Both the position numbers and the translations under genes were made by a program. The notes beneath the pieces are model-generated. The model worked only from the letters and a program-made list of their open reading frames with translations, had not been told where the DNA came from and searched no databases. DNA of 44,906 nucleotides from a bacterium. Its GTDB lineage: Bacteria > Electryoneota > RPQS01. Positions within the stretch are counted from its first letter, which is position 1. Each line of letters opens with the position of its first letter. Shown here one piece after another: positions 1,862 to 14,444 of this stretch. Where the stretch lies: contig JABWCQ010000020.1 of the NCBI GenBank assembly GCA_013360195.1, positions 1 through 44,906 of the forward strand, given 5' to 3'.

Positions 1862-2238
1862 GTTAGCAAGAGATCTGTCCAATAACCTCCTGGGATGTTC
1901 CAAAAGGTTTCTGGCAGATATACTGAGAAGTATATAGACCCTGACGACGGGAAGAGACCAAAACCAAAAAGGTCCCCCGTAGCTAACCTGAAAAGGTTGG
2001 GGTGACACAGCGCAAAGTTCTGGCCGTAGGCAACAACCGTAGCCGCGAGCTATGACCCGACCACGTGAAATTCGTGCGCGAAAACTGGAGAGGGGCAGAC
2101 GAGCTACCCGGCCCCTTCGGTGCACATACGCCGACGCTGTGGCGTTAAACCCGATGAGCAGATAATAACCGCGTCAGGATCAGTGACACCAACGGTCTGA
2201 AACTCAGCGTGCTTGCTGAGTGGGGGTTCTGTTTCCCC
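1862..2238 (+). ncRNA. Candidate large structured RNA, no protein frame
   Basis: This stretch holds many nested complementary arms. GTTAGC (1862-1867) pairs with GCTAAC (1982-1987) and encloses three helices: ATCTG/CAGAT (1873/1915) extended by AACCT/AGGTT (1884/1905), ATATACT/AGTATAT (1918/1929, GAGA loop), and ACGGG+GACC with GGTC+CCCGT (1947-1980). After this come CACG/CGTG (2062/2073), GGGGC/GCCCC (2092/2111), ACGCC/GGCGT (2128/2141), ACTCAGC/GCTGAGT (2202/2215) and GGGG/CCCC (2222/2235). The density of clean helices suggests selection on RNA folding. I looked for RNase P, SRP, group I and group II intron signatures and did not find them. The strand is assumed from the flanking genes. The family is unknown. 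Confidence 0.4.
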
Positions 2239-2634: not shown

Positions 2635-3642
2635 ATGGCGGGAATTTCAACAATACCGGATGACGTGCAGTGGTGCGCCAGAACATGCGAGCAGAAGTCC
2701 GTCCGGTTCCCGCTCCTACTGCTGCATTGTGTAAGCCATCTAAGTTGCCCGGTACAGAAAGCCTGCTGCATTCTCGCTTATGGAGACGTTGATGATGTCA
2801 TTGAGAGTATTAGCTTAATTACCCCTGACGAGTATAGAGAATTAGTTGACGAGAGACTGGCAGCACTCGCAACACAAGCACAAAGCTCTGCAAACACTTT
2901 TGTCATGACGGATGTCTGGAAACTCGTTCGCGTCGCATACGAGGAGTACTCATGGCGGGAATTCTGTGTCTGGTCAAGCATTCAAAGCGTGGTTGGCAGC
3001 AAGAACTATTGCAGAATTACAAACGATACGATACGACTTCGCGCTTCCGGATTTGTAAAGCTTGTCGAGAAACCTGACGGAGTTGGGTTGCTAACTCCCG
3101 ACCAAGTCCGAAGAACTCGCGACAAGCTGCAAGACAAAGGTCTGCTTCGGTTTCACCAATTGTCCCCGCGTGCAGTCTACTATGCGAGTTGGAGAATTGA
3201 CCAGGAAGCCTTTGCACTTTGCTTAGGAAAAATCAAGCTGCGGAGCGCCCTGCGCAAAGAGACGCAGAGCAGGGTCGATTCATATGCAGCGAGATTGAAA
3301 CTGGTCTATGAGCAAGAACGTGAAAAAGATGAGCACCGAAAGCTCGATGAGGAGAAGAAAAAACTGGAGAATCAAAGAGAGAAGCGGGAAGCCGCTGCCC
3401 GCCAAACCCCGTTCAACTATGTGCAAATTCCCGGTGTTGCCACTCCGACAGAGGTCAGAGTTGCCAACTCTCAAAGAATCGAGTTTGCGAATGGACAGGT
3501 TGCTCATGCAAAGGAAATCTGGATGGCGAATTTTGGCGAAATCTTAACCAATCTCAGTGAAAGTCATATTGCTCTGTCGTATCAAGGAACAGAATATCTG
3601 ATAGAGCGCCACAAACTAAATCTCTTCTTTCCATCTCGATAA
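2635..3642 (+). CDS. Unrecognised island protein with winged-helix-like and coiled-coil segments
   Basis: The frame encodes 335 residues that I cannot assign to a family. The first 45 or so residues are unusually Cys-rich and may be upstream of the true start; there is no good ribosome-binding site at 2635. Residues about 90-185 alternate helices with a NDTIRLRASGF stretch and a TPDQVRRTRDKLQDKGLLRF stretch, which resembles a winged-helix pair as seen in plasmid and phage DNA-binding or replication proteins. Residues about 225-260 are highly charged (EREKDEHRKLDEEKKKLENQ) and should form a coiled coil. The C-terminal 75 residues look globular. It lies 24 bases before the excisionase-like gene and is probably cotranscribed with it, so a role in element replication or control is plausible but is inference. 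Confidence 0.5.
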   Translation: MAGISTIPDDVQWCARTCEQKSVRFPLLLLHCVSHLSCPVQKACCILAYGDVDDVIESISLITPDEYRELVDERLAALATQAQSSANTFVMTDVWKLVRVAYEEYSWREFCVWSSIQSVVGSKNYCRITNDTIRLRASGFVKLVEKPDGVGLLTPDQVRRTRDKLQDKGLLRFHQLSPRAVYYASWRIDQEAFALCLGKIKLRSALRKETQSRVDSYAARLKLVYEQEREKDEHRKLDEEKKKLENQREKREAAARQTPFNYVQIPGVATPTEVRVANSQRIEFANGQVAHAKEIWMANFGEILTNLSESHIALSYQGTEYLIERHKLNLFFPSR

Positions 3643-3666: not shown

Positions 3667-3906
3667 ATGAATCAAAACCCGAATCAGTCATCACCTCTCA
3701 AGACCATTCCCACTCTGATGACCGTCGAGGATGTGGCCAGTTACCTAAAGGTTGCTGTCCAGTCTGTCTATCGCTGGGCATCACAAGAGAAAATCCCCCA
3801 CCTTAAGGTTGGGGGATCGCTCCGATTTGATCCGAATGAGATTCAGGAGTGGCTCAATAAGAAGCCAGCTCGTCGTGGCCGCCCGCCAAAAGGTTTGCAA
3901 AACTGA
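3667..3906 (+). CDS. Excisionase-family helix-turn-helix protein
   Basis: The product has 79 residues. Residues about 17-65 carry LMTVEDVASYLKVAVQSVYR, then WASQEKIPHLKVGGSLRF and EIQEWL. This is the MerR-like winged helix of the excisionase (HTH_17) family, where the first helix pair contacts DNA and the 'vGgs.Rf....i..Wl' part forms the wing. Such proteins act as recombination directionality factors or small regulators in integrative elements. The basic tail (KKPARRGRPPK) could add DNA contacts. AAGGAG, six bases before the ATG, is a good ribosome-binding site. The 3' end overlaps the end of the convergent integrase gene by 53 bases, so antisense interference between the two is possible. 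The pairing with an integrase supports an excision role. Confidence 0.75.
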   Translation: MNQNPNQSSPLKTIPTLMTVEDVASYLKVAVQSVYRWASQEKIPHLKVGGSLRFDPNEIQEWLNKKPARRGRPPKGLQN

Positions 3907-4924
3907 CCTTTGTCATTTCTCTTGCTTTGTGTTCAGGTTGAAGATGCAAGTACTTTTCGGTCATCTTTACGCTCGTGTGCCCCAAGAACTCAGAGACCAT
4001 TTTGATGTTGACATCGTTCATCAAGCAGTGTGTCGCAAAGGTATGCCTGAACGTGTGAAGCGAGACCTGACCCCGCAAGTCAACACCCTCTTTCTTCAAA
4101 ATTCTGTCTAAGAGGTCGACCCACGGCTGACGTGGAGGTGCCCAGCGTTTCGCGTTTGATGTAGTGAAGACATACTTGCCACGCCGAGGAAGCTCGTGAA
4201 ACAACTCACGGGCTTCTCGTGCCATTGGTACTATACGATTTCGGCGCGTCTTTGGTTGCCAGTCGCTCTTAATACGAACGTTAATTTGCCTGCGTTCAAG
4301 GTCAACATCAGCCCACTCCAGATTTCGTAGCTCGCCGTCGCGCAATCCGGTCAGCAATAGAAGCTGATAGAACGGGCGCTGATAGTCGGTAGCATGCTTC
4401 ATGATGAGATGAACTTCCTCACTTGTAAAGACACGAATAGGCTTCGGGTCGACCTTCACGCGCTTCACTTTCAAGGCGGGGTTCTTCTTCACATATTCTC
4501 TGTCTTCGGCCCACTGGAAAAAGACACGGACGGTCGCAAGCTCGTCATTCAGAGTCTTGTCGGCGATAACTGGCCGACGTGCTGCGAGAAATTCTTCAAT
4601 GTCATTTGCCTTGAGTTCCGCAAAGCTTGCCTTGCCATAGCTCTTAAGCCAGTCCTGAAAGTGATGAAAGTGCTGTGTCATCCGTTTCTGCCAAGGTGGG
4701 GATTTCTTGGAAACCACCTGCCCGAAGAACAGCTTGAAAGCTTCATCGTTGGAGACCCGGCGTTGCCCGATTCCGGCCAGGAACTGGTCTCTGTCCTTGA
4801 TGAAATCAGCCTCCAGTTTCTTGGCAGCGTCCTTCGTGGTGACCCCAAGTGACCGCTGGACCAGCTTGCCGTTCTCCAGATACTGAATCTGGTAAGTTTT
4901 CCCTCTTTTGTAGATGCTCGCCAT
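3854..4924 (-). CDS. int: Tyrosine recombinase (phage-type integrase) of the ssrA-integrated island
   Basis: The product has 356 residues, a normal length. The N-terminal 60 residues (MASIYKRGKTYQIQYLENGK onward) form an arm-type DNA-binding domain. Residues about 75-155 form a SAM-like core-binding domain with ANDIEEFLAARR. The catalytic domain shows the usual residues: Arg in LLLTGLRDGELRNLEW, Lys in the IKSDWQPKTRRNR region, the HTFRHTFATH box, LGHTSVKMTEKY with the second His, and Tyr in EKYLHL. It catalyses site-specific integration and excision. The gene starts at ATG 4922-4924 with GAGG six bases upstream. It ends 107 bases from the 3' end of ssrA and points away from it, the usual arrangement for an element using the tmRNA gene as attachment site. 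A consensus promoter lies directly upstream. Confidence 0.92.
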   Translation of the reverse strand: MASIYKRGKTYQIQYLENGKLVQRSLGVTTKDAAKKLEADFIKDRDQFLAGIGQRRVSNDEAFKLFFGQVVSKKSPPWQKRMTQHFHHFQDWLKSYGKASFAELKANDIEEFLAARRPVIADKTLNDELATVRVFFQWAEDREYVKKNPALKVKRVKVDPKPIRVFTSEEVHLIMKHATDYQRPFYQLLLLTGLRDGELRNLEWADVDLERRQINVRIKSDWQPKTRRNRIVPMAREARELFHELPRRGKYVFTTSNAKRWAPPRQPWVDLLDRILKKEGVDLRGQVSLHTFRHTFATHCLMNDVNIKMVSEFLGHTSVKMTEKYLHLQPEHKAREMTKVSFANLLAGGHDELASY

Positions 4925-4993: not shown

Positions 4994-5022
4994 GACTATG
5001 AAAATCATAGTTTAACAAGGGG
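4982..5022. terminator. Long hairpin after ssrA, probable terminator
   Basis: GCCCCTTGT (4983-4991 region) pairs with ACAAGGGGC, with an inner CTATGA/TCATAG helix around AAA. On the plus strand it is followed by TTTTT; on the minus strand (ssrA direction) by GTATTTATTT. It probably ends ssrA and may work in both directions; its outer arm overlaps the int -35 box. Confidence 0.6.
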
Positions 5023-5030
5023 CTTTTTAG

Positions 5031-5060
5031 TGGAGACGGCGGGAATCGAACCCGCGTCCG
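5031..5060. other. Probable attachment site (att) of the island in the 3' end of ssrA
   Basis: The integrase gene begins 107 bases from the tmRNA 3' end, and the gene is complete because the island carries a replacement 3' segment, as is usual for tRNA/tmRNA integrators. The identity block probably covers the T arm and acceptor strand. A second copy is expected at the far left end of the island; I see none between 1 and 5030, so that end is outside the window. Confidence 0.6.
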
Positions 5061-5387
5061 AGAAGCGGACCACACCGGGCACTACAGGCTTAGGAGTTGG
5101 ATTGGTTTCTCACTCCCGGGGCGTACCAACCCCAAAACTACCGGGAGTCAGCCACTAAATCTCACCCGTTTGCGTGGCGGTCCACGGGCCAGTCCAACCA
5201 TAATTTGATATCGCGGCCGGTATCGTCGGACAGTTCCCGGGGGCGACAGGTGCCGTTATTTTATTTAGGCAGCCATTGCGTAAGTGTCATTGGCACTTAG
5301 TATTTGGGATCCTGATTAAGGAGGGCACCCCATCCTCCGCCTGCTCCCAACGCCATCCATTCATCCCGTCGAAACCTTGGCGTCCCC
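5031..5387 (-). ncRNA. ssrA: Transfer-messenger RNA (tmRNA)
   Basis: The 5' end (5387 downward) reads GGGGACGCCAAGGTTTCGAC, the conserved tmRNA opening, and the 3' end has the tRNA-like T arm GGGTTCGATTCCC and acceptor strand CGTCTCCA; GGGGACG pairs with CGTCTCC. Length is about 357 bases, as expected. The tag frame begins at GCC (5294) and ends with TAA (5267-5265), encoding ANDTYAMAA, similar to the ANDENYALAA tag of E. coli. tmRNA rescues stalled ribosomes and tags the nascent peptide for proteolysis. The encoded 3' terminus reads ACTA rather than ACCA after the stem, so CCA would have to be added or repaired. The 3' end abuts an integrase gene, marking this as the island's attachment site. 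Confidence 0.95.
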
Positions 5388-5396
5388 GAAGATTAC

Positions 5397-5425
5397 AATA
5401 TACAAACAAGTTGGCGGCCTTCCAA
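5397..5425 (-). promoter_or_regulatory. ssrA promoter
   Basis: On the minus strand TTGGAA (5425-5420), a 17-base spacer and TATATT (5402-5397) are followed nine bases later by the GGGG that begins mature tmRNA. The fit of spacing and start point makes this a strong call. Confidence 0.7.
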
Positions 5426-5447
5426 GTTCCCCACGAAAGTCAAACTA

Positions 5448-6113
5448 TCAATGTTCAGACCACTCTCTCAACTCCGCATTCCGCACCATCTTCGGCATCT
5501 CCTCCGCAAACGACACATTGATCATCGCCTTGGAAACCTCAACCGTATCCGTCACAAATCGCGGCATAACCGATTTCAAGCTGTAAAACAAACTCCAAAT
5601 CTTATCCTGCCACTGCGCTTTCTCTCGCGGATGAATTGGATGAATGTAAGCCGGACGAAAAATACAAAGCTGTTTTCCGAAAATTTCACGCAAACGATTC
5701 TCCGCCTGCCCTTTCACGCGCCGCCACAACGTTGAACTTTTCTCCGTTGCATCCGCACCCGCACCGCTCACAAAACAAAATCTCGCCTCAGGATTTGCAG
5801 ACTTGAGAGCTTTCGCCGCCGCCACAACATAATCCAATGTGATCAGAGTGTATTGCTTCGGATCAGAAACCTGCACCTGCGAAACTCCCAGCGCGCAGTA
5901 ACAAACGTCAATCTCACTCAATTCTTCCATCAAATCAGCATAGCTCAAAAAATCTTCGCGCACGATGACGGTAAGCTTCTGATGCGATTCCTTGAGCAGT
6001 CGTCTTGTGATGGCAACAACACTCTCAATCCGCTCATCGCAGATGCATTGTCGCACAAGCTCCGAGCCAACTGCGCCGGTCGCGCCCATAACGAGGACCC
6101 GAGTTTGAGGCAT
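5448..6113 (-). CDS. NAD(P)-binding Rossmann protein, HTATIP2/atypical SDR type
   Basis: From ATG 6113 the product has 221 residues. The N-terminus has a beta strand and the glycine motif VLVMGATGAVGSELVRQC (GxxGxxG), the dinucleotide-binding loop of atypical short-chain dehydrogenases. Later segments typical of this group are CYCALGVSQ, the YTLITLDYVVAAAKALK helix, FCFVSGAGAD and the RVKGQAENRLRE helix, with IFRPAYIH near the end. Relatives include the HTATIP2/TIP30-like oxidoreductases; the substrate is unknown. A TTG 15 bases upstream could also start the frame, but GGAG seven bases before ATG 6113 favours that ATG. It is the last gene of a minus-strand series and could be cotranscribed with the SnoaL-like gene 58 bases upstream. 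Confidence 0.8.
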   Translation of the reverse strand: MPQTRVLVMGATGAVGSELVRQCICDERIESVVAITRRLLKESHQKLTVIVREDFLSYADLMEELSEIDVCYCALGVSQVQVSDPKQYTLITLDYVVAAAKALKSANPEARFCFVSGAGADATEKSSTLWRRVKGQAENRLREIFGKQLCIFRPAYIHPIHPREKAQWQDKIWSLFYSLKSVMPRFVTDTVEVSKAMINVSFAEEMPKMVRNAELREWSEH

Positions 6114-14369: not shown

Positions 14370-14444
14370 TGGGGAATCGTCTAATTGGCAGGACACCAGA
14401 CTCTGGATCTGTGAATCGGGGTTCGAGTCCCTGTTCCCCAGCCA
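14370..14444 (+). tRNA. tRNA-Gln (anticodon CTG)
   Basis: The cloverleaf folds well: acceptor TGGGGAA pairs with TTCCCCA, D stem GTCT/GGAC, T arm CGGGG-TTCGAGT-CCCTG, discriminator G and encoded CCA. The anticodon loop CTCTGGA places CTG at 14403-14405, reading CAG. The outermost anticodon-stem pair (27-43) is a C-U mismatch; the other four pairs are sound. The sequence resembles bacterial tRNA-Gln (UGGGGUAUCG opening in E. coli). Confidence 0.95.

Follow-up and report, generated by a model that had tools for sequence, protein, structure and literature searches.

A candidate folded RNA segment downstream of a predicted antisense-RNA attenuator in a CRISPR-carrying integrative element

The + strand at 1853-2203, between two open reading frames of an integrative element, is predicted to fold into a well-defined, multi-branched structure, and we tentatively read it, at somewhat under an even chance, as an untranslated folded intercistronic segment that acts in cis on an antisense-gated transcript. 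The gate itself is the clearer RNA feature of the two: judged from its sequence, 875-1486 is a putative antisense-RNA transcription attenuator of textbook plasmid rep-leader type. This module lies a few hundred bases upstream of, and outside, 1862-2238, the interval in which an earlier note had proposed an unknown structured RNA. The window analyzed here (44,906 nucleotides) is an entire contig of a 3.2-Mb assembly of 46 contigs that is ~96% complete.

Two strong promoter-like sites frame the attenuator. On the + strand, TTGACA-16-TATATT (875-902) has a motif score of 11/12 and carries a TG before its -10 element, and a convergent TTGACA-18-TATATT on the - strand (1379-1408, also 11/12) would serve a short antisense RNA; the 45-kb contig has only four sites of at least 11/12, these two included. 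The predicted antisense RNA (1296-1372, - strand, ~75 nt) ends in a 14-bp terminator hairpin with a T run (z = -3.79 for 1290-1373), and its UUGGCG faces the loop CGCCAA (1315-1320, + strand) of a hairpin in the sense leader. The non-coding stretch ahead of the 112-aa ORF (1109-1519) folds better than 1862-2238, with z = -5.1, and the fold of the sense leader reaches z = -4.3. An intrinsic terminator, GGAGAGGCGCTGACC...GGTCATGCGCCTTTTT (1444-1484, + strand; z = -5.36 for 1444-1486, equaled by 0/200 shuffles), ends ~35 nt short of the 112-aa ORF. Its 5' arm, GGAGAGGCGC, is predicted to be able to pair instead with either of two alternative anti-terminator arms on the same strand, GCGCCTCTCT (1347-1356) or GCGTCTCTCC (1361-1370), each of which has one mismatch to the complement of 1444-1453 and both of which fall within the antisense-covered stretch. 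When 1294-1372 is blocked, the predicted leader fold turns from anti-terminator to terminator. The module therefore combines the features of a countertranscript attenuator, namely convergent promoters, a predicted terminator and anti-terminator that exclude one another, and an anti-terminator arm inside the antisense target. Homologues of it were found neither in 291 genomes nor in the related-element loci examined nor among plasmids.

The candidate RNA begins at the end of the 112-aa ORF. Many of the helices that the earlier note had described for 1862-2238 are present, but the best-defined unit, found by folding a wider stretch, is slightly shifted, and the secondary structure drawn in that note was partly wrong. 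The extent best supported by fold, shuffles and ensemble statistics is 1853-2203 on the + strand, with an outer helix, two further long-range helices (p >= 0.94 for the long-range helices) and eight local hairpins. The outer closing helix joins 1855-1864 to 2191-2200 through 9 pairs (TTAG.CCGTT / AACGG.CTGA; p 0.94-0.96), and the stop codon of the 112-aa ORF falls inside it. Next come an imperfect hairpin at 1873-1919 (ATCTG.CCA..AACCT..TGGG / TCCA..AGGTT..TGG CAGAT; p 0.79-0.99) and a GNRA-looped hairpin at 1918-1935 (ATATACT-GAGA-AGTATAT; p 0.84). The second nested long-range helix pairs CCTGACG (1940-1946) with CGTCAGG (2172-2178) in 7/7 positions (p 0.98), and is followed by a hairpin with an A-rich loop at 1947-1980 (ACGGG..GACC / GGTC..CCCGT; p 0.81-0.98) and by a second GNRA-looped hairpin at 1983-2000 (CTAACCT-GAAA-AGGTTGG). 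The third, CACAGCG (2006-2012) with CGCTGTG (2135-2141), again forms 7/7 pairs (p 0.98) and surrounds four hairpins at 2017-2056, 2062-2076, 2090-2117 and 2117-2134. Just past the core lies one more hairpin, ACTCAGCG-TGCT-TGCTGAGT (2202-2221; p 0.96), with no T run after it. The helix first taken to close the structure, GTTAGC (1862-1867) with GCTAAC (1982-1987), is rivaled by the hairpin at 1983-2000 and had to be abandoned: the larger folds give it a probability of 0.000-0.001 and lose 8 kcal/mol if it is imposed, and its probability exceeds 0.98 solely when 1862-1992 is folded in isolation.

Against dinucleotide shuffles, the + strand of 1862-2238 folds at -127.6 kcal/mol (shuffles -113.0 +/- 5.9; z = -2.46; 2/100 as good) and the - strand at -140.6 kcal/mol (z = -3.91; 0/100 as good). 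The folding energy of 1853-2203 on the + strand is lower than that of shuffled controls, as the proposal of a structured RNA implied, with z = -3.05 (0/100 shuffles) and -3.41 (1/400 shuffles) for boundaries picked after folding. What distinguishes the + strand is how well its structure is defined: 88 pairs have p > 0.8, compared with 38.7 +/- 17.8 in shuffles, of which 0/200 reach 88; its low positional entropy is matched by 2/200 shuffles; and only 1/200 has as much as its two GNRA hairpin loops. The - strand shows no comparable definition: 19/200 shuffles match its confident pairs and 30/200 its entropy.

The strongest rival to a cis-acting folded segment is that there is no functional RNA here at all, and that the helix scan picked out a spacer between genes, or coding sequence in decay, that folds well by chance. 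We regard this as a serious prospect, a little short of an even one. Among 744 sliding 360-nt windows covering both strands of the contig, 2.3% equal the candidate in confident pairs per base and 1.3% in entropy; since ~2% of windows are as well defined, folding energy alone is no proof of an RNA. The coordinates of the earlier note yield z of only -2.5 on the + strand, and in a scan with 150-nt windows 1851-2000 alone stands out (z = -4.5), with 1901-2200 near zero, so a helix search over 45 kb may yield such a region by chance. Conservation of 1853-2203, moreover, was not found in the collections searched. Against a chance fold stand the confident pairs that no shuffle equals, and a well-definedness that is confined to the + strand and comes with GNRA loops. 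The known tmRNA of the same contig scores poorly on all fold measures (z = -0.4), and these measures therefore neither prove nor disprove an RNA.

The absence of a protein frame, already remarked on from the sequence, was upheld in that no frame is convincing and the ORF fragments searched have no family match, including against NCBIfam. Codon-usage scores of its six frames range from -0.09 to -0.29 (off-frame mean -0.27), compared with 0.18 to 0.40 for the chromosomal genes of the contig. The element's own genes score only -0.12 to 0.05, which makes the codon-usage test weak here, and a decayed coding stretch is accordingly possible for 1853-2203.

The setting in an integrative element beside defense genes was confirmed. 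The mobile element is bounded by att copies, one of which (~5001-5053) overlaps the 3' end of ssrA, the tmRNA gene, and the other of which lies on a second contig (C29:3813-3863; 91% identity, E = 4e-12) adjoining a CRISPR array in which GTATTCCCCACGCACGTGGGGGTGAACCG occurs in 57 exact copies (C29 positions 1 to ~3400). A tyrosine integrase (3854-4924, - strand; PF00589 E = 2e-29, phrog_1) and an excisionase-like helix-turn-helix protein (3667-3906, + strand; PF12728 E = 5e-15, phrog_66, TIGR01764) are encoded next to the first att copy, and the left contig end holds the start of cse1 of a type I-E CRISPR system (2-409, - strand; PF09481 E = 1e-19). The remainder of cse1 is absent from the assembly, and the middle of the element is therefore missing; cas3 was not detected above the curated cut-off in the assembly and is not upstream of cse1. 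Rightward from cse1, a 70-aa ORF is followed by a long non-coding stretch and then the 112-aa ORF; the candidate RNA comes next, ahead of the 335-aa ORF, the excisionase and the integrase. In the 70-aa ORF (430-642, - strand), the piece GANIGFEAQLLNAADALRSNMDAAKF is reminiscent of the N-terminus of the type I restriction protein HsdM, an identity for which profile and sequence searches gave no support; the ORF is possibly a gene remnant. Matching of the CRISPR spacers to the window gave, among the matches listed, a single 18-base chance match located outside the element, and repeat-like copies within the candidate region are no better than in shuffles. Integrases 36-60% identical occur in the same phylum, the majority in elements likewise at ssrA, and these sister elements carry other cargo, without the candidate RNA or the 112-aa or 335-aa proteins. 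Members of this ssrA-targeting integrase family at loci L049, L050, L053, L055 and L056 (35-60% identity) adjoin excisionases and have variable cargo. At L056, a strongly folded intergenic inverted repeat at 5231-5560 (of the ATCCTTC..GAAGGAT and TCATCCTGAA..TTCAGGATGA type) resembles a chromosomal repeat.

The gene that follows the attenuator, the 112-aa ORF (1520-1858, + strand), is sigma-70 region 4-like, with a helix-turn-helix of that type matched by PF08281 (E = 5e-4) and TIGR02937 (E = 1e-4), both below curated cut-offs. Further on, the 335-aa orphan ORF (2635-3642, + strand) has no recognized family; it is possibly a DNA-binding or replication protein, and AlphaFold models of the protein and of one fragment were too poor in quality for use. 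Neither ORF, used as bait, found relatives in the collections searched. Between the candidate RNA and the 335-aa gene, 2331-2470 contains a short ORF, MVQDARERTQEVTKLNIP, after a strong GGAGG ribosome site, then a protein-like stretch in another frame, KESLIESKLRLKRLNQSESYIPQGVFNE, and could encode a leader peptide or be a small gene broken by a frameshift.

These neighbors give some weight to a second alternative, that 1853-2203 is a DNA site: a replication or transfer origin of the excised element, whose folded single strand an initiator or RNA polymerase recognizes. Plasmid-style antisense control lies directly upstream, a possible DNA-binding orphan gene directly downstream, the element is excisable, and the - strand beats the + strand in folding energy (z -4.0 vs -3.4). 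Iterons or clear direct repeats were not found in 1850-2700, no relaxase or Rep family is recognized in the assembled part of the element, and the GNRA loops and the well-defined ensemble belong to the + strand; taken together, we consider a DNA site improbable.

As first observed from the letters of the region, none of RNase P, SRP, 6S, tmRNA, T-box or group I/II RNAs matches it (Rfam 15 covariance models). With permissive filters, Rfam over 1853-2262 returned nothing up to E = 10, and at gathering score the whole window contains only the tmRNA (5028-5387) and a tRNA (14370-14441). It is very improbable that the segment is a diverged representative of one of the known large RNA classes (group I/II intron remnant, RNase P-like, omega RNA, OLE, GOLLD, ROOL), as its multi-branched fold, with GNRA loops and long-range helices nested in one another, might suggest: that short stretch has no Rfam match, and neither a reverse transcriptase nor IscB/TnpB nor any other customary partner gene is recognized adjacent to it. 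Within its own genome, in 193 relatives and in the order's 13 genomes, blastn found just 20-40 base chance matches, and 72,556 plasmids and 50,697 phages likewise gave chance matches only. A single-sequence covariance model recovered only that sequence in 340 genomes (other matches scored ~9 bits) and no homologue in the related-element loci or, among viral and genome loci, in 86 integrase loci and 80 pattern loci. That the segment represents a new class, a structured RNA of ~350 nt belonging to a CRISPR-carrying integrative element, antisense-attenuated and serving element maintenance or excision, is in our estimation unlikely.

We return to the reading of 1853-2203 as a cis-acting segment of an antisense-gated message. 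Established here are the sequence elements and their predicted folds, together with the lack of any known family and of a convincing reading frame; from these we infer transcription, co-transcription, an attenuation mechanism and a role for the folded segment. The flanking ORFs, too, are on the + strand, the well-defined one. From the attenuator to the 335-aa gene (1486-2635), no + strand promoter of at least 9/12 and no + strand terminator was found, and one antisense-gated transcript is thus the simplest picture. A single rightward transcript would run from the promoter at 875 through the attenuator leader (1290-1486), the 112-aa ORF, the folded segment and the 335-aa ORF to the excisionase. 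Abundant antisense RNA would cover both anti-terminator arms, so that transcription would end at 1484; with little of it, the polymerase would continue through the folded segment. The segment may then set mRNA stability, or how strongly the 335-aa protein and the excisionase are expressed relative to the upstream ORF; alternatively, a protein of the element may bind its own message there.

Should its fold have a function, the segment would count as an unclassified RNA linked to mobile-element control in a little-studied phylum. The predicted antisense attenuator, lying as it does in an integrated element, suggests the survival or re-use of copy-number-type control in CRISPR-carrying integrative elements. 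The candidate RNA resembles OLE, GOLLD, ROOL and HEARO in being non-coding and several hundred bases long, with nested long-range helices and multi-branch junctions, and differs from them in having no sequence or Rfam match, occurring once and being without covariation support; it is also shorter than OLE, at ~600 nt (PMC9723947). The attenuator differs from plasmid rep leaders in that it is a predicted module in an integrative element of a metagenome-assembled genome (MAG), with relatives that include a Calditrichaeota MAG, and in that the gene it would gate is a sigma-region-4-like ORF and no recognized Rep. Antisense attenuation by the same logic operates in pT181 and pIP501 (PMC5703833) and in pSA564, where the terminator hairpin of the antisense RNA bears a CGCCAA kissing loop (PMC8129170). 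Like pT181 repC/RNAI, pIP501 repR/RNAIII and pSA564 repA/RNA1, the module at 875-1486 has convergent promoters and a predicted short antisense RNA, and it shares with plasmid rep leaders an antisense terminator hairpin that is the likely kissing loop, a predicted anti-terminator and terminator that exclude one another, and a terminator placed right before the first gene. The CGCCAA/UUGGCG loop is common to pSA564 and to this attenuator.
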